From contig NZ_CP044427.1 in NCBI RefSeq assembly GCF_008843165.1, forward strand, positions 2,852,001-2,916,000: a DNA stretch of 64,000 bases, in the 5' to 3' direction. Below are positions 18,797-49,498 of this stretch, piece after piece; position 1 is the first letter of the stretch, and every line of letters starts with the position of its first letter. A program made the position numbers and the translations under genes. The notes under the pieces were generated by a model. That model did no database searches. It saw nothing but the letters and a program-made list of their open reading frames with translations, and was not told where the DNA came from. This stretch comes from Ornithinimicrobium pratense (GTDB taxonomy: Bacteria; Actinomycetota; Actinomycetes; Actinomycetales; Dermatophilaceae).

Positions 18797-18866
18797 CCGG
18801 TCAAGGCTACCGGGGGTATGCCGCGCCGCCCGCCACCCCGCAGATCGCCCCTCTCCCCGGGACGGG

Positions 18867-18928
18867 CAAGGTCCTGCACCACAGACCACGTCGTCAACGC
18901 TGCAGGCGGTGCAGAACGTTGCCTGTCC
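18867..18928. repeat. Left copy of a 62-bp repeat bordering the first AbiEi-like gene
   Basis: This 62-bp segment aligns without gaps to 20160-20221 with 13 mismatches, about 79% identity. It contains TGCACC and GGTGCA as partial inverted arms. It lies between cysS and the AbiEi-like gene, and the other copy lies after that gene. Confidence 0.7.
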
Positions 18929-18932
18929 TGGC

Positions 18933-18957
18933 TGTGGACAATCCTGGCTGTGGACAA
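18933..18957. promoter_or_regulatory. Two DnaA-box-like 9-mers upstream of the first AbiEi-like gene
   Basis: TGTGGACAA occurs at 18933-18941 and 18949-18957 in the same orientation, 16 bp apart. Its complement TTGTCCACA is the DnaA box consensus of high-GC actinobacteria. A further copy lies upstream of the second AbiEi-like gene (27107-27115). DnaA control is inference. Confidence 0.5.
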
Positions 18958-18996
18958 GCTCGGACCCCGGGCTGCGCGCCCCGGCAGACTCGAACC

Positions 18997-20004
18997 ATGT
19001 CTGCGGAGGGGATCATCTCGTTGCTCGAGGCGCAGGGCGGGGCAGGTAGCCGACGCCAGCTGCAGGAAGCCGGGTTCTCGCGCCGGACTGTGGAGGCGAT
19101 GGTGCGTCGCCGAGAGCTGGTCAGCGTCCGCAGGGACGCCGTGGTCCTGGCTGCCGAACTGGTCGATGCCACGCCGTGGGCCAGGCGGGCGCTGGAGGCG
19201 AGGGCGGTCGGGTTCAGCCTCGCCCCGGCGACCGACGGAGCCCGGGACGCAGCGGTCCATGCGCTCAGCCACGAGAGCGCCCTCATGGTCCATGGGCTCC
19301 CCTATTTCGGTGAGGACGGGCTGGTCCATCTCGTCCGGACCGACGGGCTGCGAGGTCGCCGTGACGACACGGTCTGGGTGCACAGCCCGGTCGATCCCAG
19401 CTGGGTCGTGGCCGTCGAGGGCCTCCGGGTGATGCGGCCGGTGCTGGCTGCCCTGCAGGTCGCGGCCACGCATGGTGAGGAGGCCGGTCTGGTCGCCCTC
19501 GACGGCGTGCTGCACGAGGCACGGCTGCGGGACAAGGACGAGGTCGGCCGCTCGGACGGGCCCGCGACGGCAGCGGCCCACCGACAGATCGCGTCGGCGC
19601 TGACCCTCACCTGGGGACCAGGCACTCCGGTGGTCCGGCTCGTCGCCGAGTTCTCGGACGGCCGCAGCGAGTCTGCCGGTGAGAGCCGGAGCCGTTGGCT
19701 GCTGCGCCTCCTCGGGTTCGGCCCGACCACCCTCCAGTTCCCCGTGCGCGACGGTGCGGTCCTGGTGGGTCTGGCGGACCTGAAGCTGGACCGCTGGGAC
19801 GTGCTGATCGAGTTCGACGGGACCGGGAAGTACACCGGCCCCGGCACGCTGCTGGCCGAGAAGGACCGCGAGGACCGGATGCGGGCACTGGGCTATGAGG
19901 TGGTCAGACTCCGGTGGGCGGACCTGGCCAGACCGCACCTGGTCCGTCAGCGCATCCTGGCCGCCATCGCCCGCGCGGAGGCCCGGGCCGCCACGACGGG
20001 GTGA
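18997..20004 (+). CDS. AbiEi-like winged-helix protein with C-terminal nuclease-like domain (first copy)
   Basis: This 335-aa protein begins with a winged-helix type IV antitoxin/AbiEi-like domain ([21 protein letters not shown], about 17-40). A middle domain contains [15 protein letters not shown]. The C-terminal region, about 255-330, is DUF559/Vsr-like: [15 protein letters not shown], an [20 protein letters not shown] segment and a final helical tail. The D, E and K positions suggest a PD-(D/E)XK fold. No AbiEii toxin gene is adjacent. A CAGACT box 6 nt before ATG 18997 suggests a leaderless start. Function is unknown. Confidence 0.75.
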
Positions 20005-20171
20005 CGTGCAGTTGGTCGGGGTGTCCCCACCGGCTGCAGCAGTCAGACAACGTCCCTGCACGTGCAGTTGGTCGCGGTGTCCCCACCGGCTGCAGCAGAC
20101 AGACAACGTCCCTGCACGTGCAGTTGGTCGCGGCGTCCCCAGCGGCTGCAGCAGACAGACAACGTCCTGCA
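20005..20171. repeat. Three tandem 56-bp repeats after the first AbiEi-like gene
   Basis: Units start at 20005, 20061 and 20117, each opening CGTGCAGTTGGTCG. They differ by a few substitutions, and the third has one base missing. Each contains the short hairpin CGGTG-TCCC-CACCG or a variant, and ends CAACGTCCCTGCA. The array starts immediately after the stop codon. There are no spacers of the CRISPR kind. Confidence 0.85.
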
Positions 20172-20221
20172 CCGCACACCGCGTTGACGAGGCTGCATGC
20201 GGTGCAAGACCCTGCCTGTCC
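20160..20221. repeat. Right copy of the 62-bp repeat bordering the first AbiEi-like gene
   Basis: This is the homologue of 18867-18928. It contains the near-perfect inverted arms TGCACCGCA and TGCGGTGCA separated by about 20 nt, so it can form a hairpin. It overlaps the end of the third 56-bp repeat. Confidence 0.7.
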
Positions 20222-20277
20222 CAGCACGCCGCCTCAGGTGAGGGGCGGGGGCCGGTGCCACGGCCTACCCTGTGGGT

Positions 20278-20934
20278 ATGCATATCGCCCAGGAACTGGT
20301 GCTCGTCGGGACGAGCGTGGAGGGGCGCAACCTGCTGGGCACCAGCCGCAACCTGGTCCTGGCAGGGGCCTTCCTCACCGAGCTGGCGGTCCTGGAGCGC
20401 CTGGCCGTCGATGGCAAGAAGCTCCGGGTGCACGACCCCGGGCCGACCGGTGACTACCTCCTCGACGACGCCCTGGTCCGCTTCGCCAAGCTCGAGGGCA
20501 AGAAACCGAAGGACGTCCTCGACAAGGTCGGCAAGCACCTCCTCGAGCCCGTCCTGGAGAGCCTGGCCACCCAGGAGCTCATCCGGCCCGAGCCGGTCTC
20601 GGTCATCGGCCTGACCCTGTGGACCCGCTGGCCGGTGGTCGTCGACGGCCCGAGGCAGGCCGTGCTGATCGACCTGGCCCAGGTGCTGACCGGGGCCCGG
20701 GACGCGGACTCCCGCACCGGGGCGTTGATCTCCCTGCTGCACGCCGTAGGCGCCCTGCACACCGTGGTGCCCGAGGACCTGCGACCGGGCATGACCAACC
20801 GGGATGTCAAGCGTCGGGGCAAGGAGGTCCTCAAGGGCCGCTGGGCCCCCGAGGCGGTCGCCAAGGCCGTCGAGGAGGCTGCAGCCGCCGCCATGGTGGC
20901 GGTCACCGCTGCGGCAGGCGCCGGCTCCAGCTGA
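20278..20934 (+). CDS. GPP34-family (Golgi phosphoprotein 3-like) protein
   Basis: This 218-aa protein opens MHIAQELVLVGTSVEG and continues through LRVHDPGPTGDYLLDDALVRF and SLLHAVGALHTVV, a layout typical of bacterial GPP34 proteins. The family's eukaryotic members bind phosphatidylinositol 4-phosphate. The bacterial role is unknown. ATG 20278 has a TACCCT box 6 nt upstream (20266-20271), a leaderless arrangement. The C-terminus is Ala-rich. Confidence 0.85.
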   Translation: MHIAQELVLVGTSVEGRNLLGTSRNLVLAGAFLTELAVLERLAVDGKKLRVHDPGPTGDYLLDDALVRFAKLEGKKPKDVLDKVGKHLLEPVLESLATQELIRPEPVSVIGLTLWTRWPVVVDGPRQAVLIDLAQVLTGARDADSRTGALISLLHAVGALHTVVPEDLRPGMTNRDVKRRGKEVLKGRWAPEAVAKAVEEAAAAAMVAVTAAAGAGSS

Positions 20935-21006
20935 GCCACCCGGCCAGGCGGTCGCACCGTCTCCTTGCACTGCGGCCCGTGCCCCGGGCCGCCTAGCGTG
21001 GTGGGC

Positions 21007-23304
21007 ATGCCCGTCGTCCACGAGTCCGACCATGCCCGCCTGAGCGTCCTCACCCCTCACCTGGTGCGCTTGGAGTGGTCGCCGTCCGGCGCCTTCACCG
21101 ACGAGCCGACACAGGTGGTCCTCGACCGTGACTTGGGGCCGGTGCCGGCCACGGTAACCCCGGTGGGCAGCGGCGTAGAGGTCGTCACCGACGGCTTCGA
21201 GCTGGTCTACGACGGCGGGCCACCAACCCCCTCCGGCCTCTCGCTGCAGGTCAGGGGCGGCGTGACCACCTACCACTCGGTGTGGCGGTATGGCGTGCCC
21301 GTGCGCCCCAAGAGCCGGCTGGGCGGCACCGCCCGCACCCTGGACGAGGTCGACGGGCGCAGCCCGCTGGAGCCGGGCGTGATCTCCCGGGACGGTTACG
21401 AGGTGCTGGACGACTCGGCCAGCCTGGTCCGCACCGGTCCCGGAGTCGCCGACCTGAAGCCCCGGGAGGAGGGTGCGGTCGACCTCTACGTCTTTGCCCA
21501 CGGGCTGGACTTCCGCGGCGCGCTCCGCGACTTCTACCGATTGACCGGCCCCGTGCCGCGGGTGCCGCGCTACGTGCTGGGCAACTGGTGGAGCCGCTAC
21601 CACCCCTACTCCGCGCAGGAGTACTCCGCCCTGCTGGACCGGTTCGCCGCCGACCGGCTGCCGTTCTCGGTCGCGGTGCTGGACATGGACTGGCACATCA
21701 CCGACAGCCAGTTCGACAGCCGGTTCGGCAGCGGCTGGACCGGCTACACCTGGGACCCCCGGCTTTTCCCGGACCCCGGGGCGTTCCTGGCCGAGCTGCA
21801 CGACCGCGGCTTGAAGGTCACCCTCAACGACCACCCGGCGGACGGGGTGCGGGCGTTCGAGACCGCATACCCGACGATGGCGCGGGCCCTCGGCGTGGAC
21901 CCGGCCACCGAGGCGCCCTTGGCCTTCGACGTCACCGACCCCGCCTGGCTGCGGGCCTTCTTCGACCACGTGGCGCACCCGCTGGAGGAGCAGGGGGTGG
22001 ACTTCTGGTGGATCGACTGGCAGTCCGGCCCCTACTCCCGGCTGCCGGGCCTGGACCCGCTGCGGGCGCTCAACGAGGTGCACTTCGCCGAGCTCGCCGC
22101 GACCGGCCGCCGACCGGTGGTCTTCAGCCGTTATGCCGGGCCGGGCAGCCACCGCACGCCGATCGGCTTCTCCGGCGACACGGTGATCAGCTGGGACAGC
22201 CTGCGCTTCCAGCCCGAGTTCACCGCCACCGCGGCGAACATCGGCTACGGCTGGTGGAGCCACGACATCGGCGGGCACTGGGGCGGGGTCAAGGACGTGG
22301 AGCTGGCGGTGCGCTGGGGGCAGCTCGGGGTGTGGTCGCCGGTCAACCGGCTGCACGCGACGGCCAGCCCCTTCCAGGGCAAGGAGCCGTGGCGGTTCGG
22401 CCCGGAGGCCGAGGCCTTGATGGGTGCGGCGCTGCGGCTGCGGCATCGGCTGCTGCCCTACCTGGCCACGATGGCCGAACGGGCCAGCGCCGAGGGCGTC
22501 CCGCTCGTCGAGCCGGTCTACCACCGCCATCCCGCACGCGAGGAGGCCTACGCGCACCGCGCCACCTACTTCTTCGGCGCCGACCTGCTCTGCGCGCCGG
22601 TCGTGCAGCCCCGCGACCGGCGCACCGGCCTGGCCCGGGTCGACCTGTGGCTGCCGCCGGGCGCCTGGTTCGACCTGGAGACCGGCCGGCGCTACGAGGC
22701 TGGGGACCACGGGCGCACGGTGGCGGCCTACCGGGACCTGGCGCACACCGCGGTCTTCGCCGCCGCCGGCACCGTGCTGCCGCTGGTCGCGGAGGACGAG
22801 GTCGGCAACGGCGTCCCGCTACCGATCGCGCTGGACCTGCAGGTCTACCCCGGCGCCGACGGCGAGCACCTGCTGGTCGAGGACGACGACGGACCCGAAC
22901 CGACCCGGCGGGTGGCCCGGACGCCGCTGCGGCTGCGCGGCGGGACCCTGACGGTTGGCCCCGCCGAGGGTGACCTGACCGCGCTGCCGGCGAAGCGGAC
23001 CTGGACCGTGCGGGTGGCCGGCTCTGGCTCTCCCGCGAGCGTCCACGCGGACATCCCCGTCGGTGAGCAGGTGAGCATCGACCTGAGGGGGTCCGAGCCC
23101 GAGCAGCATGAGCTCAGCACCTGCTTCGCCATCCTCGACGCCGCGGAGGTCGAGCACGCCACCAAGGACGAGGTATGGCGTCTGCTCACCCGGTCCGACC
23201 TGTCGGCCCCCCGCGCCGGGTTGGTGGGCGAGCTGACCTCACTCCCTCTCGACCCGTCCTTGCTGGGTGCGCTGGTGGAGGTGCTGACCGCCGAGGGGCG
23301 GTGA
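21007..23304 (+). CDS. Glycoside hydrolase family 31 alpha-glycosidase
   Basis: This 765-aa enzyme has an N-terminal beta-sandwich and a GH31 barrel. LDMDWHITDSQFDSRFG is near 225. The likely nucleophile Asp337 is in DFWWIDWQSGPYS and the likely acid/base Asp391 is in GFSGDT. Distal beta-domains follow. About 90 extra C-terminal residues (TCFAILDAAEVEHATKDEVW) look like a small helical appendage. No signal peptide is seen, so it is probably cytoplasmic and may act on maltose-type or other alpha-glycosides. A TAGCGT box lies 7 nt before ATG 21007. Exact specificity is not readable. Confidence 0.9.
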   Translation: MPVVHESDHARLSVLTPHLVRLEWSPSGAFTDEPTQVVLDRDLGPVPATVTPVGSGVEVVTDGFELVYDGGPPTPSGLSLQVRGGVTTYHSVWRYGVPVRPKSRLGGTARTLDEVDGRSPLEPGVISRDGYEVLDDSASLVRTGPGVADLKPREEGAVDLYVFAHGLDFRGALRDFYRLTGPVPRVPRYVLGNWWSRYHPYSAQEYSALLDRFAADRLPFSVAVLDMDWHITDSQFDSRFGSGWTGYTWDPRLFPDPGAFLAELHDRGLKVTLNDHPADGVRAFETAYPTMARALGVDPATEAPLAFDVTDPAWLRAFFDHVAHPLEEQGVDFWWIDWQSGPYSRLPGLDPLRALNEVHFAELAATGRRPVVFSRYAGPGSHRTPIGFSGDTVISWDSLRFQPEFTATAANIGYGWWSHDIGGHWGGVKDVELAVRWGQLGVWSPVNRLHATASPFQGKEPWRFGPEAEALMGAALRLRHRLLPYLATMAERASAEGVPLVEPVYHRHPAREEAYAHRATYFFGADLLCAPVVQPRDRRTGLARVDLWLPPGAWFDLETGRRYEAGDHGRTVAAYRDLAHTAVFAAAGTVLPLVAEDEVGNGVPLPIALDLQVYPGADGEHLLVEDDDGPEPTRRVARTPLRLRGGTLTVGPAEGDLTALPAKRTWTVRVAGSGSPASVHADIPVGEQVSIDLRGSEPEQHELSTCFAILDAAEVEHATKDEVWRLLTRSDLSAPRAGLVGELTSLPLDPSLLGALVEVLTAEGR

Positions 23305-23441
23305 GCCTGTGCCCTCACGCCATCTCCGCCTCTTCCACGCCCGACCGCCGCCTCAGCCCGGCCCGCCTTCACCTGGCAGCCCACCTGCGGCCCGCCTAGC
23401 GTGGTGGACGTCCCCACCCCTGCAGCAGAGAGGCGAGATCG

Positions 23442-24341
23442 ATGACCGAGTCGACCGTCGGCCAGCGCGCCGAGAGCATGACGAACGACCAGGGTGGCTT
23501 CCCCGCACAGGAGCAGGAGCCGCCCGGCAGCACGAGCGCGATGGACCCTGTGCCCGACCACGGGGAGGAGACCTACAAGGGCAGCGGCAAGCTCGAGGGC
23601 CTGCGCGCCCTGGTCACCGGTGGCGACTCCGGTATCGGCCGCGCGGTCGCGATCGCCTTCGCCCGTGAGGGTGCGGATGTCGCCCTGTCCTACCTGCCGG
23701 ATGAGCAGGAGGACGCCGAGTCCACCGCCGAGCTGGTCCGCGCGGCCGGGCGCACCGCGGTGCTGTGCCCCGGTGACCTCACGGCGGAGGCAACCTGCGA
23801 GCAGGTTGTCGAGAAGTCGGTGCAGGAGCTGGGTGGGCTGGACGTGCTGGTCAACAACGCTGGCGCCCAGTGGGCCCGGGACGAGGGCCTGGAGCAGATG
23901 AGCTCGGAGCGGATGGACCGGATCTTCAAGACCAACCTCTACGCGCTGATGTGGATGACCCGAGCCGCCCTGCCGCACCTCGGCAAGGGCGCCAGCATCA
24001 TCAACGTCAGCTCGATCCAGGCCTGGGAGCCCTCGACCACGCTGCTGGACTACGCGGCGACCAAGGCGGCCATCAACAACTTCACCGTCAACCTCGCGGC
24101 CGAGGTCGGCCCCAGGGGCATCCGGGTGAACGCGGTCGCCCCTGGACCGATCTGGACGCCCCTGCAGCCGGCCACCAAGCCCGCCGAGGCGATGGAGGAG
24201 TTCGGCGCCGACACCCCGCTGGGGCGGGCCGGCCAACCCTCGGAGGTGGCCCCAGCCTTTGTCTTCCTGGCCTCGCCGCGCGACGCCAGCTATGTCTCCG
24301 GCACGGTGCTCGGGGTGACCGGCGGCAAGCCGGTCTTCTAG
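23442..24341 (+). CDS. Short-chain dehydrogenase/reductase (YghA-like extended N-terminus)
   Basis: This 299-aa SDR has an N-terminal extension of about 50 residues, as in YghA/YhdF-type proteins. The cofactor motif is TGGDSGIGRA, followed by NNAG in VLVNNAGAQW, Ser in NVSSIQAWEP, and YAATKAA (Tyr and Lys of the active site). The C-terminal segment is VSGTVLGVTGGKPVF. Many relatives use NADP on sugar alcohols or aldehydes, but the substrate here is unknown. A GAGAGGCGAG ribosome site precedes ATG 23442. The gene is convergent with the AMIN-like gene and shares its terminator. Confidence 0.9.
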   Translation: MTESTVGQRAESMTNDQGGFPAQEQEPPGSTSAMDPVPDHGEETYKGSGKLEGLRALVTGGDSGIGRAVAIAFAREGADVALSYLPDEQEDAESTAELVRAAGRTAVLCPGDLTAEATCEQVVEKSVQELGGLDVLVNNAGAQWARDEGLEQMSSERMDRIFKTNLYALMWMTRAALPHLGKGASIINVSSIQAWEPSTTLLDYAATKAAINNFTVNLAAEVGPRGIRVNAVAPGPIWTPLQPATKPAEAMEEFGADTPLGRAGQPSEVAPAFVFLASPRDASYVSGTVLGVTGGKPVF

Positions 24342-24352
24342 GCCCCGGACCA

Positions 24353-24383
24353 CCGGCGGCGGCGGACGATCCGCCGCCGCCGG
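24353..24383. terminator. Bidirectional terminator between SDR and AMIN-like genes
   Basis: CCGGCGGCGGCGGA (24353-24366) and TCCGCCGCCGCCGG (24370-24383) form a perfect 14-bp stem with a 3-nt loop, 11 bp after the SDR stop. It can serve both convergent genes. Confidence 0.8.
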
Positions 24384-24406
24384 GATCCTGGCTCAGCTGC
24401 GCGCCG

Positions 24407-25015
24407 TCACCACTTGTGCGCGACGTCGATGACCAGGCGCGAGCCGCTCCCGGGGCCATCGAGCACGAAGACCCGCATCGGCAGCCGGGCGCGCACGCCC
24501 ACACCGAAGGTGGTCTGGCCCTCGAACGACCCGGCGACCGCGACCTGCCGCAGCGTGTCGTAGCCGGTGACGTCGACCACCTTGCTCCGGTCCTTGGGTG
24601 AGTAGGTCGGGCGGCCGGAGGAGTCGTAGGCCGGCACGGTCACATCCACCTGCAGCCGCGCCCCACCGGCCAGCGGCACGGGCTGGCCGGACCCAGGCTG
24701 CGTGACCGTGTCGACGTAGCGCACCCGGTGGCCGACCTTGCCGGCCGCGATCCCGGCGATATCCACGACCACGCGGTCGAAACAGGCATGCCGCCCCGAG
24801 CGGACGTTGCTGATCGTCCCGTCGCCGACATGGCTGTCGCTGCGCGCCTTCTCCAGTGACCCCCAGGTCACCCCGCAGCTGATGCCCGCTGCGCCGACCG
24901 AGGCGCTCGCCGCACCGGTCGGCACCGCGGCCGCGGCGGGCACGGCCCCGCCCAGCATGACGAGCGCAGTCAGCGTGGCCGCCGCCCTCCGGGTCGTCCC
25001 CACGGTCTTTCTCAT
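24407..25015 (-). CDS. Secreted AMIN-like domain protein
   Basis: This 202-aa protein has a twin-Arg-containing basic start, a hydrophobic core (LTALVMLGGAVPAAAAV) and an AxA cleavage region. The mature part matches actinobacterial AMIN-like proteins: CGVTWGSLEKA, SNVRSGRHACFDRVVVDIAG, and the closing VFVLDGPGSGSRLVIDVAHKW. AMIN-type domains are associated with cell-wall localisation, and no enzyme domain is attached. ATG 25015 gives the compact signal peptide and has a weak GGGGAAG site. Role unknown. Confidence 0.8.
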   Translation of the reverse strand: MRKTVGTTRRAAATLTALVMLGGAVPAAAAVPTGAASASVGAAGISCGVTWGSLEKARSDSHVGDGTISNVRSGRHACFDRVVVDIAGIAAGKVGHRVRYVDTVTQPGSGQPVPLAGGARLQVDVTVPAYDSSGRPTYSPKDRSKVVDVTGYDTLRQVAVAGSFEGQTTFGVGVRARLPMRVFVLDGPGSGSRLVIDVAHKW

Positions 25016-25103
25016 GATCTTCCCCTGCCCTTCTGGGGCGCTCCGGCGGAGCACCTTCGTCAGGTAGTCGCGCCATGGTCGGAGAAGGTTCAGGAGACGG
25101 GAA

Positions 25104-25127
25104 GGGGGCGGGTGATCACCCGCCCCC
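25104..25127 (-). terminator. Palindromic terminator after the MBL hydrolase gene
   Basis: GGGGGCGGGTGA and its complement form a continuous 24-bp palindrome just downstream of the MBL gene stop (25145). It has no U-tract. Confidence 0.6.
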
Positions 25128-25144
25128 GTCCTACGGCATACCGG

Positions 25145-25774
25145 TCAGCTGCCCCGGTCGATCCACTCCTGACGCTGCGGCGCCTCGTCCCCGATCGTGG
25201 TGCTGCCGCCGTGGCCGGTGCGCACCACCGTCTCCTCGGGCAGGGCCAGCAGCTTGTCGGTGATCGACTCGATGATGGTGTCGAAGTTGCTGAACGAGCG
25301 GCCGGTCGCGCCCGGCCCGCCCTCGAAGAGGGTGTCACCGGTGAACACCGTCGCCATGCCCGGGACGTAGAAGGAGCAGGCACCCGGGGAGTGACCGGGG
25401 GTATGCAGCACGTGCAGGCTCTGCCCCGCGACCTCGATCGTCATCCCGTCGGCCAGGTCCTCGTCCCAGGTGCGGCCCGGGTGGGTGAGCTCCCAGACCG
25501 GCTTGTCGTCGGGGTGCAGGTAGATGGGGCCGTCCACCCACTCCTGCAGGTCGAAGACCGCGTCGACGTGGTCGCTGTGGGCGTGGGTGAGCAGGATCCC
25601 GACCACCTTGCGGTCCGCAGCGATGTCGGCGATCTTCTGCGCGTCATGGGGAGCGTCGATGATCACGCACTCCTCGTCGTTGCCCAGCACCCAGATGTTG
25701 TTGTCCACCTCCCAGGTGCCGCCGTCCAGCTCGAAGGCGCCGGTGGTGATGCCATGGTCGATCCGCACGTTCAT
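25145..25774 (-). CDS. MBL-fold hydrolase paired with mycothiol-dependent formaldehyde dehydrogenase
   Basis: This 209-aa metallo-beta-lactamase-fold protein has the HxHxDH zinc motif ([15 protein letters not shown]), [12 protein letters not shown], and [10 protein letters not shown]. It is glyoxalase-II-like. Its ATG overlaps the mscR stop, and the same pair occurs in M. tuberculosis (Rv2259-Rv2260). The likely role is hydrolysis of S-formylmycothiol or a related mycothiol thioester made by MscR. The role follows from pairing, not from a substrate signature. Confidence 0.88.
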
Positions 25775-26925
25775 GCCTTGCTCTCCTCCGTCTCGGGAGC
25801 GCCCGCGGGCGCCTCGGTCTGGCTGTCGATAACCACGACGCTACGCAGCACGTCGCCGCCGTGCATCTTCGTGAAGGCCGACTCGACGTCGCCGAGCCCG
25901 ATTGTCTCGGTGACGAAGCCGTCGAGATCGAACCGGCCCTGGCGGTAGAGGTCGATGAGCATCGGGAAGTCGCGGGAAGGCAGGCAGTCGCCGTACCAGC
26001 TGGACTTCAGCGCCCCGCCGCGGCCGAAGACGTCGGCCAGGGGCAGGGTGACCTCCAGGTCGGGGGTCGGCACCCCGACGAGCACGACGGTGCCGGCCAG
26101 GTCGCGGGCGTAGAAGGCCTGCTTGTAGGTCTCCGGGCGGCCTACCGCCTCGACCACGACGTCGGCGCCGTGCCCACCGGTGAGGGCCTGGATGGCCTCG
26201 ACCGGGTCGTTCTCCTTGCTGTTGACGGTGTGGGTGGCGCCAAAGCGCTTGGCCGTCTCCAGCTTCCGGTCGTCGATGTCGACGGCGATGATCGTCGTGG
26301 CACCGGCGATCGCGGCCCCGGCCACGGCGGCGTCGCCGACCCCGCCGCAGCCGATGACGGCCACCGAGTCGCCGCGGGTGACGGCGCCGGTGTTGACTGC
26401 TGCACCGAAGCCGGCCATCACGCCGCAGCCGAGGAGGCCAGCCGCGACGGCGGAGGCCTCACGGTCGACCTTGGTGCACTGGCCGGCGGCGACCAGCGTC
26501 TTCTCGATGAACGCGCCGATCCCCAGGGCCGGGCTCAGCTCGGCCCCGGCCATCGGGTCGCCCTCGGCCAGGGTCATCTTCTGGGTGGCGTTGTGGGTGG
26601 CGAAGCAGTACCACGGCTTGCCCTTGGCACAGGCCCGGCACTGGCCGCACACGGCGCGCCAGTTGAGGATGACGAAGTCACCGGGCTCGACCTCCGTCAC
26701 GCCCTCCCCCACGGCCTCGACCGTCCCTGCGGCCTCGTGGCCGAGGAGGAAGGGGAACTCGTCGTTGATGCCGCCCTGACGGTAGTGCAGGTCGGTGTGG
26801 CAGACGCCGCAGGCCTCGACCTTGACCACCGCCTCCCCCGGACCAGGGGCTGGCACGACGATGTCGACGACCTCGACGTCGGCATCCTTGCTGCGGGCGA
26901 TGACGCCCTTGACGATCTGGGACAT
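25771..26925 (-). CDS. mscR: S-(hydroxymethyl)mycothiol dehydrogenase
   Basis: This 384-aa zinc-dependent class III-type alcohol dehydrogenase oxidises the formaldehyde-mycothiol adduct. It has the catalytic zinc ligands in [12 protein letters not shown] and [14 protein letters not shown], the structural zinc cysteines ([15 protein letters not shown]), and the NAD fold [17 protein letters not shown]. MscR-type features are [12 protein letters not shown] and [19 protein letters not shown] 26925 has an AGGAGGG site. It is translationally coupled to the MBL hydrolase. Together with mshA and mshD it shows a mycothiol-using host. Confidence 0.92.
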
Positions 26926-27036
26926 GAAGGACCCTCCTGGGCAGGTGTGCAGGTGTTGCCTCCACCGTAGGCGGACCGTTCCCTCCAGGCGCGTGGGGGT
27001 GCGCTCCAGGGGGGTCCAGGCTCTCTGACCACGCAT

Positions 27037-27098
27037 GTGCAGAAGCGGGGTGTCACATCCGTCGCCAGCGTGACCTATGTGTCACTCCGTTCCTGCAC
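27037..27098. repeat. Palindromic element upstream of the second AbiEi-like gene
   Basis: The 21-nt arms at 27037-27057 and 27078-27098 are complementary at 17 positions, with GTGCAG and CTGCAC at the outer ends. The same design recurs downstream of the gene at 28288-28349, including the GGGGxGTCACATCCGT core. Confidence 0.7.
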
Positions 27099-27106
27099 CA
27101 CCGTCG

Positions 27107-27115
27107 TTGTCCACA
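27107..27115. promoter_or_regulatory. DnaA-box-like 9-mer upstream of the second AbiEi-like gene
   Basis: TTGTCCACA is identical to the actinobacterial DnaA box consensus. It lies 53 bp before ATG 27169. The first AbiEi-like gene has two copies in its upstream region. Confidence 0.5.
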
Positions 27116-27168
27116 GGGCAGCCCCTGGATCAGGGCGAGGAGCAAGCCACCTGCAGGACGCTGGGGGC

Positions 27169-28206
27169 ATGAGCGATCTGCTGGGCACTGCGCCACGCAC
27201 CTCCCACGGTGGGGCCCCGCAGCCGCGACCCGACTTCCCCAGCATCGTGGGCCAGCACGGTCTGGCCACCTATCGCCAGCTGCGCCAGGCGGGATGGAGC
27301 GAGGGGCAGATCCGGCACGCGAGGAGCACCGTCTGGCAGTGCCCCTTCCCGTCTGTCGTCGCCGCGCACCGTGGGCCCGTGGACGCCACGACCCAGCTCA
27401 TCGCGGCGACGCTGTGGGCTGGACCGCGGGCGATCCTGTCCGGGACCTCGGCTCTGCGGCTGCTCGGACTTCGCGTGCCGGGCAGGCTGCGCTTCGTCTA
27501 CGTTGTCCCGGCGACCGGCCGAGCCAGACGTCACGGGATCGCCAGCGTGGTCCGTTCGGCCCGGGAGGTCCCCGGGGTCCAGAAAATGGGGATCGTCCAG
27601 GCGGCCCCGGCAGCACGGGCCCTCGCCGATGCCGCGGTCTACGAGGCAGTGGCGGCCCAGGATCTGGAGGCCCTGGCGATCGCGGTGCTTCAGCGGGGGC
27701 TCTGCACCGCCCAGGAGATGGAGCTGGAGCTGTGGCAGCGGCCGCACCGCAAGGTGGCCGGGATCGGCGTGGGCCTGGCGGGGTTTCTGGGTGGGGCGTG
27801 GTCACGCCCCGAGGCGGCGTTGCGACGGGTCGTGGACCTCGAGCCGGACCTGCCGCAGATGCTCACGAACATCCGGTTGGAACGGGTCTCGGACAGAGAG
27901 CTCGTCGGATACCCGGACGGCTTCTTCCCCGATCTTGGGCTGGTGATCCAGGTGCACTCCCGGCAGCACCACCAGGGGGTTGACGACCAGGGTGGTGACC
28001 GCTGGGCCGGCACGGTGGAGAAGGACTCGGCCTACGTGGCAGTGGGCGCACGGCTGCTCGGCGTCACCCCCTGGACGCTGTACTCCCAGCCCCGCCGCTT
28101 CCTGACCCGGCTCCGCCAGACGGTGGCACTGGGCCCCGCGTCCCCCATGCCCGCCGTCCGGGTCGTCCCGGCGCCTCCCCGCGGTCCTGCCCAGAGCGGG
28201 CAGTGA
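27169..28206 (+). CDS. AbiEi-like winged-helix protein with C-terminal nuclease-like domain (second copy)
   Basis: This 345-aa protein has the same plan as 18997-20004. The N-terminal winged helix is GLATYRQLRQAGWSEGQIRHA (about 32-52). A middle region carries AILSGTSALRLLGLRVPGRLRF, and a C-terminal region has PDLGLVIQVHSRQHH and YVAVGARLLGVTPWTLYSQP. The expected acidic positions of DUF559 are altered here (IQVHSRQHH where IE(F/V)DG is usual), so nuclease activity is doubtful. ATG 27169 follows the DnaA-like box. Tandem repeats follow the gene. No partner toxin gene is adjacent. Confidence 0.7.
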   Translation: MSDLLGTAPRTSHGGAPQPRPDFPSIVGQHGLATYRQLRQAGWSEGQIRHARSTVWQCPFPSVVAAHRGPVDATTQLIAATLWAGPRAILSGTSALRLLGLRVPGRLRFVYVVPATGRARRHGIASVVRSAREVPGVQKMGIVQAAPAARALADAAVYEAVAAQDLEALAIAVLQRGLCTAQEMELELWQRPHRKVAGIGVGLAGFLGGAWSRPEAALRRVVDLEPDLPQMLTNIRLERVSDRELVGYPDGFFPDLGLVIQVHSRQHHQGVDDQGGDRWAGTVEKDSAYVAVGARLLGVTPWTLYSQPRRFLTRLRQTVALGPASPMPAVRVVPAPPRGPAQSGQ

Positions 28207-28287
28207 TGCCCCGACCGATCCTGAAGGGCCTGGAGGGCATGGAGGGCAGGGAGGGCAGGGAGGGCATCCCACATGGTCGGCACTCTG

Positions 28288-28430
28288 GTGCACGAACGGG
28301 GCGTCACATCCGTGAGTGGGAGCACGCAGGTGACACACCGTTCCTGCACATCCGTGAGTGGGAGCACGCAGGTGACACACCGTTCCTGCACATGCGTGAG
28401 TGGGAGCACACCTGTGACATACCCGGTCGC
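28288..28430. repeat. Palindrome plus three tandem 42-bp repeats after the second AbiEi-like gene
   Basis: A hairpin with 21-nt arms (28288-28308 and 28329-28349, 17 pairs) leads into units starting at 28305, 28347 and 28389, an exact 42-bp period. Units contain CCGTGAGTGGGAGCACGCAG and GTGACACACCGTTCCTGCAC. The third is degenerate at its end. The array lies just upstream of the acyl-CoA ligase promoter. Confidence 0.85.
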
Positions 28431-28461: not shown

Positions 28462-30297
28462 GTGACGAGCGCAGAGCCCCTCATCCCGTTGACCGTGACG
28501 CCAGCCGGGTCGACCACCGAGCTGTTGTCCCACGCTGCCCGACGCTGGCCGGACCGGGTCGCGATCGACTTCCTGGGTGCCGAGCTGACCTACGCCGAGC
28601 TCGCGGCACAGGTCAGCGCCGCGGCCCAGGTCCTGCGCGAGCACGGGGTCGGGCCAGGCGACCGGGTGGCGGTCATCCTGCCCAACAGCCCCCAGCACGT
28701 CGTCGCCTTCTACGCGATCACCTCCCTGGGAGCTACCGTCGCCGAGCACAACCCGCTCGCGGCCCCGGAGGAGATCCGCGCCCAGCTGCGGATGCACGGG
28801 GCCAGGGTGGTGCTCGCCTGGGAACACTCGCTGGCCGCCGTGCTGGAGGGCGGAGGCGGGGGCAGCGGCTCTACCGTGCTCGCCGTCGACCTGACCGCGG
28901 GTATGCCGCGCCGAACCCGCCTGCTGCTGCGGCTGCCGCTCAAGGCTGCCCGGGCCAAGCGGGCCCAGCTGCGCGCAACCGTCCCGCCGGGCGTGGGTTC
29001 ATGGGACCGCAGCGTCGCCGCGGCGAGCCGGTCGACGAGCAGGCCAAGGGTGAACCGTGCGACGGCAAGGCTCTCGACGACTCGGTCCGAGCCAGCGGCG
29101 AGGACAGCAGAGGACGTGCTGCATACCCCCTCCCCCGGCGACGTGGCGGTCCTGCTGCCCACGGGCGGCACCACCGGCACCCCCAAGCTGGTGCCGCTGA
29201 CCCAGGCCAACCTCATGGCCAACGTCGCCCAGGGCCAGCAGTGGGTGCCAGGCCTGAGGGAGGGCGAGGAGACCTTCGGTGCGGTCCTGCCCTTCTTCCA
29301 CGCCTTCGGGATGACGCTCTCGCTGACCTTTGCCGTGTCCAAGGGCGCCACCCAGGTGGTGCTGCCCAACTTCGACGTGGACATGGTGGTGGCCTCGATC
29401 CGGCGTCGGCCCTGGACCTTCCTCGCCGGCGTCCCGCCGATGCTGGACCGGCTCGCCGCAGCGGCCACCGCGGCGGACCCCACGCTCCTGCGCCCCCTGC
29501 GCTACGCGATCTCGGGGGCGATGTCGCTCGACCCGAAGGTCGCCCAGCGCTGGGAGGAGGCGACGGGCGGCCTGGTGATCGAGGGCTACGGCATGACCGA
29601 GTGCTCTCCCGTGGCACTGGGCAACCCGTTCGGGCCCGAGCGTCGACCTGGCACGCTCGGCGTCCCGTTCCCCGGCACCCGGATCCGCGTCGTCGATCCC
29701 GACCTGGTCGAGGAGGACCCCGACGCGCCCGACGTGCCCGACGGGGAGGTGGGCGAGCTGCTCGTCCACGGCCCGCAGGTGTTCGGCGGCTACCTCGACG
29801 CGCCGGAGGAGAGCGCGGAGGTCCTGCTGCCCGGTGGCTGGCTGCGTACGGGTGACCTGGTCCGGCGTGACCCGGACGACGGCTTCGTGGCCCTGGCCGA
29901 CCGCCGCAAGGAGCTGATCATCTCCGGCGGTTTCAACATCTACCCTACCCAGGTCGAGGAGGCTGTCCGGGGCATGCCCGGCGTTGTTGACGTGGCCGTG
30001 GTCGGGCTGCCGGACACCTCGCTGGGCGAGCACGTCGTCGCCGCTCTTGTCCTCGAGCAGGGGGCAGCGGTGGACCTGGCTGCGCTGCGCGAGTGGCTGC
30101 ACGGGCGCGTCTCCCGGTATGCCGTGCCCCGCGCCGTGCACCTGCTGGAGGACCTGCCCCGCAGCCAGCTGGGCAAGGTGCTGCGCCGGCGCGTCCGCGA
30201 GCGGCTTCTGGGCCCGCAGGCAGGCCAGCCGCAGGAGGGCCAGCCGCAGGAGAGCCAGCCGCAGGAGGGCCAGCCGCAGGAGGGCCAGCCGGAGTAG
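28462..30297 (+). CDS. AMP-forming acyl-CoA ligase (long-chain fatty acid type)
   Basis: This 611-aa ANL-superfamily enzyme should activate a fatty or other carboxylic acid as acyl-AMP and then acyl-CoA. Motifs are VAVLLPTGGTTGTPKLVPLTQ (P-loop A3), VIEGYGMTECSPVALGNPFG (A5), GWLRTGDLVRRDPDDGFVAL (A7-A8) and the A10 lysine in LPRSQLGKVLRRRVRE. A basic Ser/Arg-rich linker sits at about 160-215. The last 25 residues are five copies of (G/S)QPQE from a 15-bp tandem repeat (30223-30297), probably dispensable. A TAGGTT box lies 6 nt before GTG 28462. The natural substrate is unknown. Confidence 0.9.
   Translation: MTSAEPLIPLTVTPAGSTTELLSHAARRWPDRVAIDFLGAELTYAELAAQVSAAAQVLREHGVGPGDRVAVILPNSPQHVVAFYAITSLGATVAEHNPLAAPEEIRAQLRMHGARVVLAWEHSLAAVLEGGGGGSGSTVLAVDLTAGMPRRTRLLLRLPLKAARAKRAQLRATVPPGVGSWDRSVAAASRSTSRPRVNRATARLSTTRSEPAARTAEDVLHTPSPGDVAVLLPTGGTTGTPKLVPLTQANLMANVAQGQQWVPGLREGEETFGAVLPFFHAFGMTLSLTFAVSKGATQVVLPNFDVDMVVASIRRRPWTFLAGVPPMLDRLAAAATAADPTLLRPLRYAISGAMSLDPKVAQRWEEATGGLVIEGYGMTECSPVALGNPFGPERRPGTLGVPFPGTRIRVVDPDLVEEDPDAPDVPDGEVGELLVHGPQVFGGYLDAPEESAEVLLPGGWLRTGDLVRRDPDDGFVALADRRKELIISGGFNIYPTQVEEAVRGMPGVVDVAVVGLPDTSLGEHVVAALVLEQGAAVDLAALREWLHGRVSRYAVPRAVHLLEDLPRSQLGKVLRRRVRERLLGPQAGQPQEGQPQESQPQEGQPQEGQPE
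30223..30297 (+). repeat. 15-bp tandem repeat forming the acyl-CoA ligase C-terminus
   Basis: Five in-frame units of GGCCAGCCGCAGGAG (one begins AGC, the last is shortened into the stop codon) encode GQPQE repeats at 30223, 30238, 30253, 30268 and 30283. Confidence 0.9.
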
Positions 30298-30324
30298 GGC
30301 GAAGGGGTTGCGGCCCGGCGAGAC

Positions 30325-30813: not shown

Positions 30814-31901
30814 GACGAGACCTCCTCGCCGTCGGGGGCGGCGGCGGCCGTCCCGGCCGCGCTCGTGGACGCGGCCTGCGCCAGCCAACCCGCGGCCTGC
30901 TCGAGGTCGTGGGGGGTGGTGATCTTCAGCGCCCGCGGCGAGCCTTCGACCACGGTGACCTGGCCGCCGCACGCTTCGACCAAGCTGCAGTCGTCGGTGG
31001 CGTTCGCGACACCACCCACCCCCGGACCCGACCGCTCGAACTCCTCATGGGCCCGCTCCAGCGTCGGGCGGGAAAAGCCCTGCGGGGTCTGGACGGCGCG
31101 CAACGTGAACCGGTCGAGGGTGGTCACGACCGTGGCCAGGCCGTCAGGGCCGAGGACGACCTGCTTGACGGTGTCACTGACCGGCAGCGCCGGGGTGACG
31201 GCGGCGCGGCCGGAGCGCACGGCTTCGACCACCCGGTCGAAGACCCCGACGGGGGTCAGCGCGCGGGCCGCGTCGTGGACGAGCACGACCGACACCCCGA
31301 GGGGCAATGCGCGAAGGCCCAGGCGCACGGAGTCGGAGCGTTCCGCTCCACCGGCGACGACCTGGATGCTGACCCCCGGCGTGTCCCGTGGGTGCCTTTC
31401 GCGTGTCCGGTCGGGACTTTCTACGTGTCCTGTCGAACCTGTTGGCGTGTCCTGTCGGGCCTTGTCGCGTGTCCTGTCGGGGAAGGCTGCGGCGACCGCA
31501 GCGCGGACGGCCGTGGTGAGCTGCTGCATACCCTCGGGGTCCGGTGGGGCGACCACCACCACCGACGTCAACGCCCTGCAGGCCAGGGCGGCGTGCAGGG
31601 CGTGGACGACGATCGGTGCCTGCTGCGGGCCGTGGCCCAGGGGCACGAGCGCCTTGGGCAAGCCAGCACCCAGACGGGTGCCCTGGCCCGCGGCGACGAG
31701 GACCAGCCCGACACCCGACGAGGACGTGGCGGGCGGCGCCGGTTCCGTGCTCAGGAGGCGAGGACCTCGTCCAGGGTGGCCTCGGCGGTGTCCTCGTTGG
31801 TCTTCTCGGCGAGCGCGAGCTCGGAGACCAGGATCTGCCGGGCCTTGGACAGCAGGCGCTTCTCGCCGGTGGACAGACCACGGTCCTTGTCCCGGCGCCA
31901 C
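30810..31901 (-). CDS. ispD: 2-C-methyl-D-erythritol 4-phosphate cytidylyltransferase with an internal repeat insertion
   Basis: This MEP-pathway enzyme couples CTP to MEP. The nucleotide loop is [20 protein letters not shown], with [16 protein letters not shown] and [13 protein letters not shown]. Two features are odd. First, five 22-bp repeats (31380-31489) insert about 35 Arg/Asp/Thr/Pro-rich residues after AAVAAAFP, before the conserved [19 protein letters not shown]. Second, the only standard start before the catalytic loop is GTG 31901, which would overlap carD by 151 bp. A CTG at 31754 overlapping the carD TGA would give the family's normal N-terminus. The true start is unresolved. Confidence 0.85.
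31380..31489. repeat. Five 22-bp tandem repeats inside ispD
   Basis: CGTGTCC recurs at 31380, 31402, 31424, 31446 and 31468, an exact 22-bp period. Most units read CGTGTCCTGTCGG or a close variant. Since 22 is not a multiple of three, successive units are translated in different frames, and all three frames stay open. Confidence 0.92.
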
Positions 31902-37248: not shown

Positions 37249-38586
37249 CTAGGGCAGGCGGTCGGGCAGAGGATGGTCGGGCAGAGGGTGGTCGGGCAGA
37301 GGGTGGTCGGGATGATGCCGGGCAGAGGCCGCGGTGCGGTAGACGTCGAGCAGTCCGTCGACGGTGCGCTCCCAGGAGAAGCCCTGCGCGTGCTCGACCG
37401 CCCGGGCCGGCCAGCGCGCACCCTCCACCTCCAGGCGGGCCAGCGCCGCAGCCAGGGCATCCGCCCAGTCGTGGGGGTCGTGCCCGTCCACGAGCACCCC
37501 GACCTCGCCGACGGCGTGCGGCAGACCGCCGACACGGGCCGCGACCACGGGCGTCCCGCTGGCGAGCGCCTCGATCGCGACCAGGCCGAAGGACTCGTGG
37601 TGGGAGGGGACCACGAGCAGGTCGGCGGCGCGGTACCACCGGGCGAGCTCCGCGCGCGGCAGGGTCTCGCCGAAGCGCACGACCCCTCCCAGGCCCTCCT
37701 CCTCCGCCAGCGCGGCGAGCGCTCTCGGGCGGGCCAGGCCCGAGCCGGACGGCCCGCCCAGGACGCTGACCAGCAGCCGGTTCCGCAGCTGGGGGTCACG
37801 GCGGACCAGCTCGCCGGCGGCCCGCAGCAGCACGTCCGGGGCCTTGAGCGGCTGGATCCGGCCGACGAAGAGCAGCAGGAGCGCCTCGGCCGGCAGGCCG
37901 AGCTCGGCGCGGGCCGACTCCTGCGGGCCAGGCCGGAAGGTCTCCAGGTCCACGCCCGGGGGGACGATCCGCACCCGGCCGGGGTCGGCGCCGTGCAGGG
38001 CCACGAGAGCGTCCCTCTCGTCGGCGGTGTTGACCACGAGCAGGTCCGCGCGCGTGACCAGCTCGTCCTCGCCGCGGACCCGCGCCGCAGGCTCGGGCCG
38101 CTCACCCTGCGCCAGTCGCTGGTTCTTCACCCGGGCCATCGTGTGCATGGTGTGCACGAGCGGCGGGCGCCTCTCGACGGCGGTGAGCTCGGCGGCGCGC
38201 AGGGCCGCCGCCCCCGAGAGCCAGTAGTGGCTGTGCACCACTCCACCGTCAGCCGCCACCCGGGCGCGGAGCGGGGCCAGTTCCTCGGCGAAGGCGTCGA
38301 CGTGCGCGGACAGGTCCTGCTTCGGGACCGGGGCGAGGGGACCGGCTGGGAGGTGGTGGACCTCGACGCCTGGGGCGGGGCGGACCGTGCCGACCTCCTC
38401 CGGTGCGGTGGCCCGGGTCGCGACGTCCACGGCCACCCCCCGCCGGGCGAGGTGCAGGGCGGTCTGCAGGACGTAGACGTTCAGCCCACCGGCGTCTCCC
38501 GTCCCGGGCGTCAGCAACGGCGAGGTGTGCAGCGAGACCATGAGGACCCGGACCGGGAGCCCTGCACGGCGGTCGTTGCTGCTCAT
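37249..38586 (-). CDS. mshA: D-inositol-3-phosphate glycosyltransferase (mycothiol step 1)
   Basis: This 445-aa GT4 enzyme transfers GlcNAc from UDP-GlcNAc to inositol 3-phosphate. Family motifs are LLTPGTGDAGGLNVYV, HSHYWLSG, FVGRIQPLKAPDVLL and the catalytic HESFGLVAIEALASGTPVV. The last about 20 residues are a PDHPL repeat encoded by a 15-bp tandem array and are not part of the fold. A CAGACT box lies 6 nt before ATG 38586. Upstream in-frame starts are not conserved. It leads the mshA-ybjN-gpmA operon. Confidence 0.94.
   Translation of the reverse strand: MSSNDRRAGLPVRVLMVSLHTSPLLTPGTGDAGGLNVYVLQTALHLARRGVAVDVATRATAPEEVGTVRPAPGVEVHHLPAGPLAPVPKQDLSAHVDAFAEELAPLRARVAADGGVVHSHYWLSGAAALRAAELTAVERRPPLVHTMHTMARVKNQRLAQGERPEPAARVRGEDELVTRADLLVVNTADERDALVALHGADPGRVRIVPPGVDLETFRPGPQESARAELGLPAEALLLLFVGRIQPLKAPDVLLRAAGELVRRDPQLRNRLLVSVLGGPSGSGLARPRALAALAEEEGLGGVVRFGETLPRAELARWYRAADLLVVPSHHESFGLVAIEALASGTPVVAARVGGLPHAVGEVGVLVDGHDPHDWADALAAALARLEVEGARWPARAVEHAQGFSWERTVDGLLDVYRTAASARHHPDHPLPDHPLPDHPLPDRLP
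37260..37319 (-). repeat. 15-bp tandem repeat at the 3' end of mshA
   Basis: Four units of GGTCGGGCAGAGGGT (plus-strand view) start at 37260, 37275, 37290 and 37305. The last is degenerate. They encode repeated PDHPL in the MshA tail. Confidence 0.88.
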
Positions 38587-49358: not shown

Positions 49359-49395
49359 GGCGGTCGGCCCCGGTCCTGGTGAGCCGGAGCAGGGC

Positions 49396-49469
49396 GATCA
49401 CGATGGCGCCGATCACGATGGCGCCGATCATGATGGCGCCGATCACGATGGCGCCGTCATGATGGCGCC
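49396..49469. repeat. 15-bp tandem repeat downstream of the MutT1-like gene
   Basis: GATCACGATGGCGCC occurs at 49396, 49411 and 49441. A variant GATCATGATGGCGCC is at 49426, and a final 14-bp copy is at 49456. It starts 38 bp after the stop codon. No gene covers it. Confidence 0.9.
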
Positions 49470-49498
49470 GGGGCGAACGGCACGGCCTGGGGAAAGAA

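Follow-up and report, generated by a model that had tools for sequence, protein, structure and literature searches.

Two AbiEi-like genes and their flanking repeats

The window analysed here, a stretch of 64,000 nucleotides from the complete 3.54 Mb genome of Ornithinimicrobium pratense, contains two genes coding for AbiEi-like proteins, genes A and B, each bordered by palindromic repeats and followed by a tandem array (Table 1). Both reading frames are open as the original prediction, made from the sequence alone, had given them. This prediction had placed gene A between 62-bp repeats; repeats do flank it on both sides, but their length is 68–69 nt. Both copies are palindromes in their own right, so that they are 78% identical to each other whether aligned in the direct or the inverted register. 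The three tandem units described 3′ of gene A were recovered. Similarly, palindromes were found on both sides of gene B, with arms of 33 nt (27030–27062 and 28366–28398, 85% complementary), and its 42-bp tandem array (28305–28423, 93% matches) is present at 2.8 copies. The GTGCA/TGCAC ends said to be common to the repeats of both genes are visible in the sequence. Gene A lies beside genes for CysS and GPP34, and gene B beside those for a zinc-binding alcohol dehydrogenase and an AMP-binding enzyme; the AbiEii nucleotidyltransferase partner is absent from the window neighbours of these two loci, as had been noted, the adjacent genes belonging to other families. No sigma-70 match and no T-tailed terminator match were found around gene A.

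Table 1. Coordinates of the two genes and their repeats within the window
Feature	Position	Strand	Remarks
Palindromic repeat 5′ of gene A	18861..18928	.	outer TGCACC...GGTGCA arms
Gene A	18997..20004	+	335 aa; AbiEi-type N-terminal part and Vsr/DUF559-like nuclease part, EFDG motif intact
Tandem units 3′ of gene A	20004..20172	.	three of 56 bp, 95% matches
Palindromic repeat 3′ of gene A	20154..20221	.	overlaps array end; 78% identical to 5′ copy
Palindromic unit 5′ of gene B	27014..27113	.	
Gene B	27169..28206	+	345 aa; AbiEi-type N-terminal part and nuclease-like part, E and D ligands replaced by Q and H
Palindromic repeats 3′ of gene B	28280..28423	.	include the 42-bp array

Protein family and domain composition

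Seven genes of the family were found in the host genome at E ≤ 1e-10 with a profile built from six. The family profile matched 95 of the 118 sampled genomes and 64 of the 73 sampled genera of the class Actinomycetes; the family is thus very common, and it has so far been named just AbiEi/DUF559. The AbiEi models of PADLOC matched the first ~190 residues encoded by gene A (E 1.6e-5) and gene B (E 5.7e-11), and hit the N-terminal part of six proteins. With Pfam, AbiEi_4 was obtained for gene B below the cut-off and nothing for gene A; among 38 family members, AbiEi_4 was present in 31 (E ≤ 0.01). For the C-terminal part, Pfam gave weak matches to DUF559 in nine of the 38 members and to REase_MTES_1575 in nine. 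These matches, together with a D, E-x-D motif, constitute its likeness to Vsr-type nucleases (REase_MTES_1575, PMC3710099; DUF559). The MTES_1575 protein described differs in being a large helicase-HEPN fusion, and palindromes are not mentioned in the available part of that source (PMC3710099).

Over 125 aligned members, the first D of the nuclease ligands was preserved in 125, the E of E-x-D in 118 and its D in 119. In gene B and five orthologues, Q and H replace the canonical E and D and the repeats are kept, which suggests that the nuclease-like part may be dispensable in at least one lineage, that of gene B, and that cleavage may not be needed. A profile search of solved structures returned weak matches only (AbaSI, E 0.27), and no reading was drawn from a structure prediction made from three sequences, with a mean pLDDT of 44.

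Similarity of each gene's own flanks in the genus and beyond

For each gene, the 400 bp upstream were aligned to the 400 bp downstream and the score was compared with those of mismatched gene pairs, the null within the genus consisting of flank pairs of proteins <45% identical. The genus set comprised 31 genomes with 264 family matches, from which 96 genes were taken. They were the seven of the host genome, one top match per genome from 29 others, and 60 hand-picked among the matches listed for being high-scoring, near full length and free of stops. Short flanks led to the removal of three of these 96 (L044, L062, L104) and of one of 29 genes from other genera (L214). The own flanks scored above the 95th percentile in 71 of the 93 genus genes tested, above the 99th in 66 and above the 99.9th in 61. 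Flanking palindromes had been predicted for related genomes, and own repeats lie on both sides of the gene in most of the relatives tested. Their absence from orthologues, named in advance as evidence against the prediction, was not found as a rule; yet 32 of the 93 genus genes, including two of the host genome (L002 and L004), stayed below the 99.9th-percentile cut-off.

Gene A scored 63 and gene B 50, against a null mean of 25.5 and a 99.9th percentile of 47. Three further genes of the host genome also exceeded the 95th percentile of 33 (L003, 39; L006, 44; L041, 48), and L002 (32) and L004 (26) fell under it, the repeats of both recurring elsewhere. When 47 genes called in the window served as controls, gene A alone reached a score of at least 40; gene B, for which a longer start had been called there, stayed below this value.

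In other genera, 23 of the 28 genes tested scored above the 95th percentile, 17 above the 99th and none above the 99.9th, because 8 of the 696 null pairs scored >60. These scores were bimodal, with 23 genes at 66–145 and five at 24–30. The flank repeats were mostly inverted there, delimiting elements of ~1.1–1.4 kb with terminal inverted repeats of 50–140 nt. It was also observed that in ten of the 28 genes (L206, L217, L223, L227, L228, L229, L201, L213, L221 and L222) both ends of the element bear (T/C)GAYCAYGT as a common outer motif, whereas the inner palindromes are gene-specific.

Scattered copies of the repeats

Solitary repeats with no adjacent gene are a prediction of a REP-like system, and such repeats were found, as anticipated, in the host genome, in its relatives within the genus and in other genera. 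The flank repeats of six host genes, the seventh (L041) being left out, identified 19 other sites in the host genome (three for gene A, five for gene B, three for L002, six for L006 and one each for L004 and L003). Matches above E 0.01 were counted as chance; E ≤ 1e-3 was reached by 18 of the 19 sites, the exception being the L003 site (E 0.006). The further copies of the gene A repeat are located at G000:C1:609286, 171837 and 2315615. The 5′ unit of gene B has a copy at G000:C1:2968800-2968895, 89 kb away, which is 96% identical over 96 bp and, judged by its sequence, is recent; the alignment can be prolonged to 114 columns, one end being weaker, in a region where a different 22-bp repeat is clustered. 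A control stretch of host DNA, 1000 nt next to gene A, gave only the self-match in its own genome at E ≤ 1e-10, a level at which the repeats have seven scattered sites.

Moreover, scattered copies in intergenic DNA were found for eight genes of eight genomes from six other genera. Twenty copies of the G093 repeat were fetched, and they form a near-invariant double palindrome, in some cases with a third module. Of 58 scattered sites, 28 were placed between convergent genes, 23 between tandem genes, three between divergent genes and four inside a called gene, the reference of window intergenic regions being 8 convergent, 16 tandem and 7 divergent. The sites were therefore rich in convergent (p 0.024) and poor in divergent positions (p 0.032), values that depend on a crude gene caller and on sites some of which are orthologous.

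Co-divergence of repeat and protein

The gene-specific matching of repeats that had been proposed was borne out by the dependence of flank similarity on protein identity. When upstream and downstream flanks of different genes were paired, scores of at least 40 were reached by 0.5% of the pairs below 35% protein identity, by 2%, 9.7% and 38.5% in the rising intermediate bins, and by 75.5% above 75% identity; repeat and protein co-diverge. Likewise, when eight repeats were cross-searched in eight genomes from six other genera as joined sequences, with 379 matches of which ~150 were listed, every match listed was to the repeat of its own genome.

Repeat similarity correlated with the similarity of the winged helix (0.65), of the middle part (0.62) and of the nuclease part (0.67), and the partial rank correlations were 0.41 for the helix given the nuclease part and 0.47 for the nuclease part given the helix. 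The idea that specificity is due to the winged helix alone was rejected, the nuclease part tracking the repeats equally closely. Among orthologues with different palindromes it is the helix that diverges most, for example in the L091/L092 pair, with 35% identity in the helix versus 69% in the nuclease part.

In most, though not all, pairs the neighbours are better conserved than the family gene. The gene shows 58% identity versus 85% and 85% for the neighbours in L091/L092, and 68% versus 94% for the neighbour between gene A and L047. Exceptions are L054/L055, with 100% for the gene versus 98% and 90%, and L097/L118, with 88% versus 86% and 85%.

A 68-bp repeat family and the gain and loss of sites

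The repeat of locus L091 has a 68-bp consensus that is a perfect palindrome. Across 42 copies, the outer 13 bp were 93–99% conserved with little covariation inside, in a set limited to copies with at least 44 of 68 matches, which favours conservation. In the 31 genomes searched, full-length copies were found in G003, G004, G016, G020, G027 and G028, a 29-bp match was the only one in G012, and the family was absent from the others. Counting the matches gives about 10 sites for G003, 13 for G004 and 6 for G028. Of the six genomes with full-length copies, all but G028 carry the L091-family gene (76–91% identity); in G028 the gene is missing from that locus, where a single palindrome separates the two host genes, and no L091-family gene was present among the five G028 genes compared, out of ten G028 matches. 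Across the 31 genomes, full-length copies of this family occurred only with the gene variant or in one close relative.

G013 and G019 carry a gene 56–60% identical at the same locus, accompanied by a different palindrome. A dispersed palindrome type of its own is present in G019; G013 has few copies, one of them at an intergenic site where G003 and G028 have the 68-bp type. A comparable case was noted for L160 (G004) and L179 (G019), where one intergenic site bears palindromes of two gene families in two species.

Presence and absence were compared at three aligned sites of four chosen as unshared, which is a non-random sample (L156 was not aligned). The first was occupied in G004, G020 and G027 and bare in G003 and G028, the second occupied in G003, G004, G020 and G027 and bare in G028, and the third occupied in G003, G020 and G027 and bare in G016 and G028. 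Other sites are common to G003, G004 and G028; since sites are mostly common to related species, spread appears to be slow or old. Around the elements, it was observed that homology of the host DNA stops at the repeats: the upstream flank is common to L099 and L101, the downstream flank to L099, L102 and L107.

A probable REP-like system built on a different protein

To our knowledge, the REP/RAYT association is the one established example in which a bacterial gene is accompanied by a population of extragenic palindromes that belong to it. The resemblance to it that had been suggested for genes A and B is supported by the comparative tests, from which we infer binding and spreading. As far as the accessible parts of the literature describe them, RAYT genes are likewise flanked by their own palindromes, often inverted, with repeat–protein co-divergence, scattered extragenic copies, a gene that often evolves faster than its neighbours and a gene presence that tracks repeat presence, here in the one family tested (PMC2817692, PMC3116915). 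REPs differ in being 20–40 bp long with >100 copies per genome, as those parts give them, whereas the units found here are of 50–90 bp and number in the tens. RAYTs are Y1/HUH transposases, in contrast with the AbiEi-type winged helix and Vsr/DUF559-like part of this family; the Pfam matches of the 38 members (E ≤ 0.01) included no Y1/HUH transposase family, and to judge from these matches the protein is not a RAYT. It is likely, however, that the system works like RAYT/REP, and each gene and its palindromes probably form one co-evolving unit of this kind, with a non-homologous protein.

Paired inverted repeats of 23 bp are the binding sites of AbiEi and Rv2827c, according to the portion of the source available (PMC7319586), and this fits palindrome units of 50–90 bp. 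These type IV AbiE antitoxins, including Rv2827c, correspond to the N-terminal ~190 residues and have paired inverted repeats upstream alike (PMC7319586, in the same portion); they differ from the genes studied here, which have an extra C-terminal nuclease-like part, no AbiEii beside genes A and B, and repeats that are also downstream and scattered. Because of this known binding, the AbiEi-type winged helix would most likely bind the two arms of its own palindrome, and the upstream copy would autoregulate the gene. A nick or cut made at the palindrome by the Vsr/DUF559-like part would be followed by repair that copies the palindrome to other sites, and the copies would persist in intergenic DNA where no promoter is disturbed. 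Binding, cleavage and mobilisation by the family protein are putative activities, deduced from sequence comparisons. We put forward tentatively that, in Actinomycetes, an antitoxin-derived binder joined to a Vsr-like nuclease may mobilise its own operator as selfish extragenic DNA through nuclease-provoked repair, in a REP-type system in which a nuclease replaces the HUH transposase and specificity re-evolves gene by gene. Covariation in 24 G093 copies was modest, with a score of 0.057 versus 0.036 when shuffled, with five double-change pairs versus 3.3 and 59 of 500 shuffles as high; covariation, slight also in the 68-bp family, does not separate recognition of a hairpin (RNA or single-stranded DNA) from that of a duplex.

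It is conceivable, though unlikely, that the palindromes serve an autoregulated DNA-binding protein as operators, the scattered copies making up its regulon. AbiEi-family antitoxins do autoregulate via paired inverted repeats (PMC7319586, available portion), the conserved outer 13 bp of the 68-bp family with little inner covariation is what a double-stranded binding site would be expected to show, and gene B retains its repeats without the nuclease ligands. A regulon, however, hardly accounts for copies that prefer convergent over divergent positions (28 versus 3 of 58), for repeats and tandem arrays also 3′ of the genes, or for the 96% copy of the gene B unit, which indicates duplication of a whole unit. 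Rather more improbable is a single-gene insertion sequence, in which gene and terminal inverted repeats move as a whole and the scattered palindromes are leftovers or miniature derivatives. Terminal inverted repeats, a feature of insertion sequences, were found mostly in the other genera, where the size of the elements and the outer motif at both ends of ten of them would suit such mobility, as would the element of G018, which is inverted relative to its flanks. Moreover, G004, G013 and G028 showed no family ORF at the cysS site that gene A occupies; there cysS is close to GPP34 and the repeats are absent too, as read by eye from DNA and coordinates. Against it, no convincing target-site duplication was found in 21 elements, the host genome has no near-identical second gene copy (the best paralogue of gene A is 61% identical), and orthologues keep their loci.

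The original prediction had held that the genes could equally be defence-related, for which the AbiEi ancestry of the N-terminal part, seen in the PADLOC matches, was the only positive support. A defence or toxin–antitoxin module in which the repeats, as DNA or RNA, restrain a nuclease toxin in a type III-like manner would agree with tandem arrays adjoining a nuclease gene, but it is very improbable given the lack of a partner gene beside A or B, the occurrence of repeats to either side of the genes and throughout the genome, the absence of Rfam matches from seven repeat loci, and the absence of tblastn matches of A in phages and of B in plasmids.

A search of the open literature, with subscription papers and preprints outside its scope, showed, among the papers listed, none joining this family to palindromes. 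If the REP/RAYT-like reading is true, this would be a second, unrelated protein family with the hallmarks of REP/RAYT, implying that such systems arise repeatedly, and a function would be given to a family known only by its domain names. The spread of REPs and the reasons for their retention by hosts would also become testable with a different enzyme, and the many gene–palindrome pairs constitute a natural data set for winged-helix specificity.

Other tandem repeats

A 9-bp tandem repeat, AGGGCATGG, lies directly 3′ of gene B in 4.8 copies (28225–28267), and the window holds three 15-bp tandem arrays (30214–30300, 37260–37311 and 49395–49470). A 22-bp unit, GCGTGTCCTGTCGGGCCTTTC, forms a tandem array at window positions 31379–31481 and also surrounds the solitary B-type palindrome (L022, in the G000:C1:2968800 region), near tRNA-like genes.
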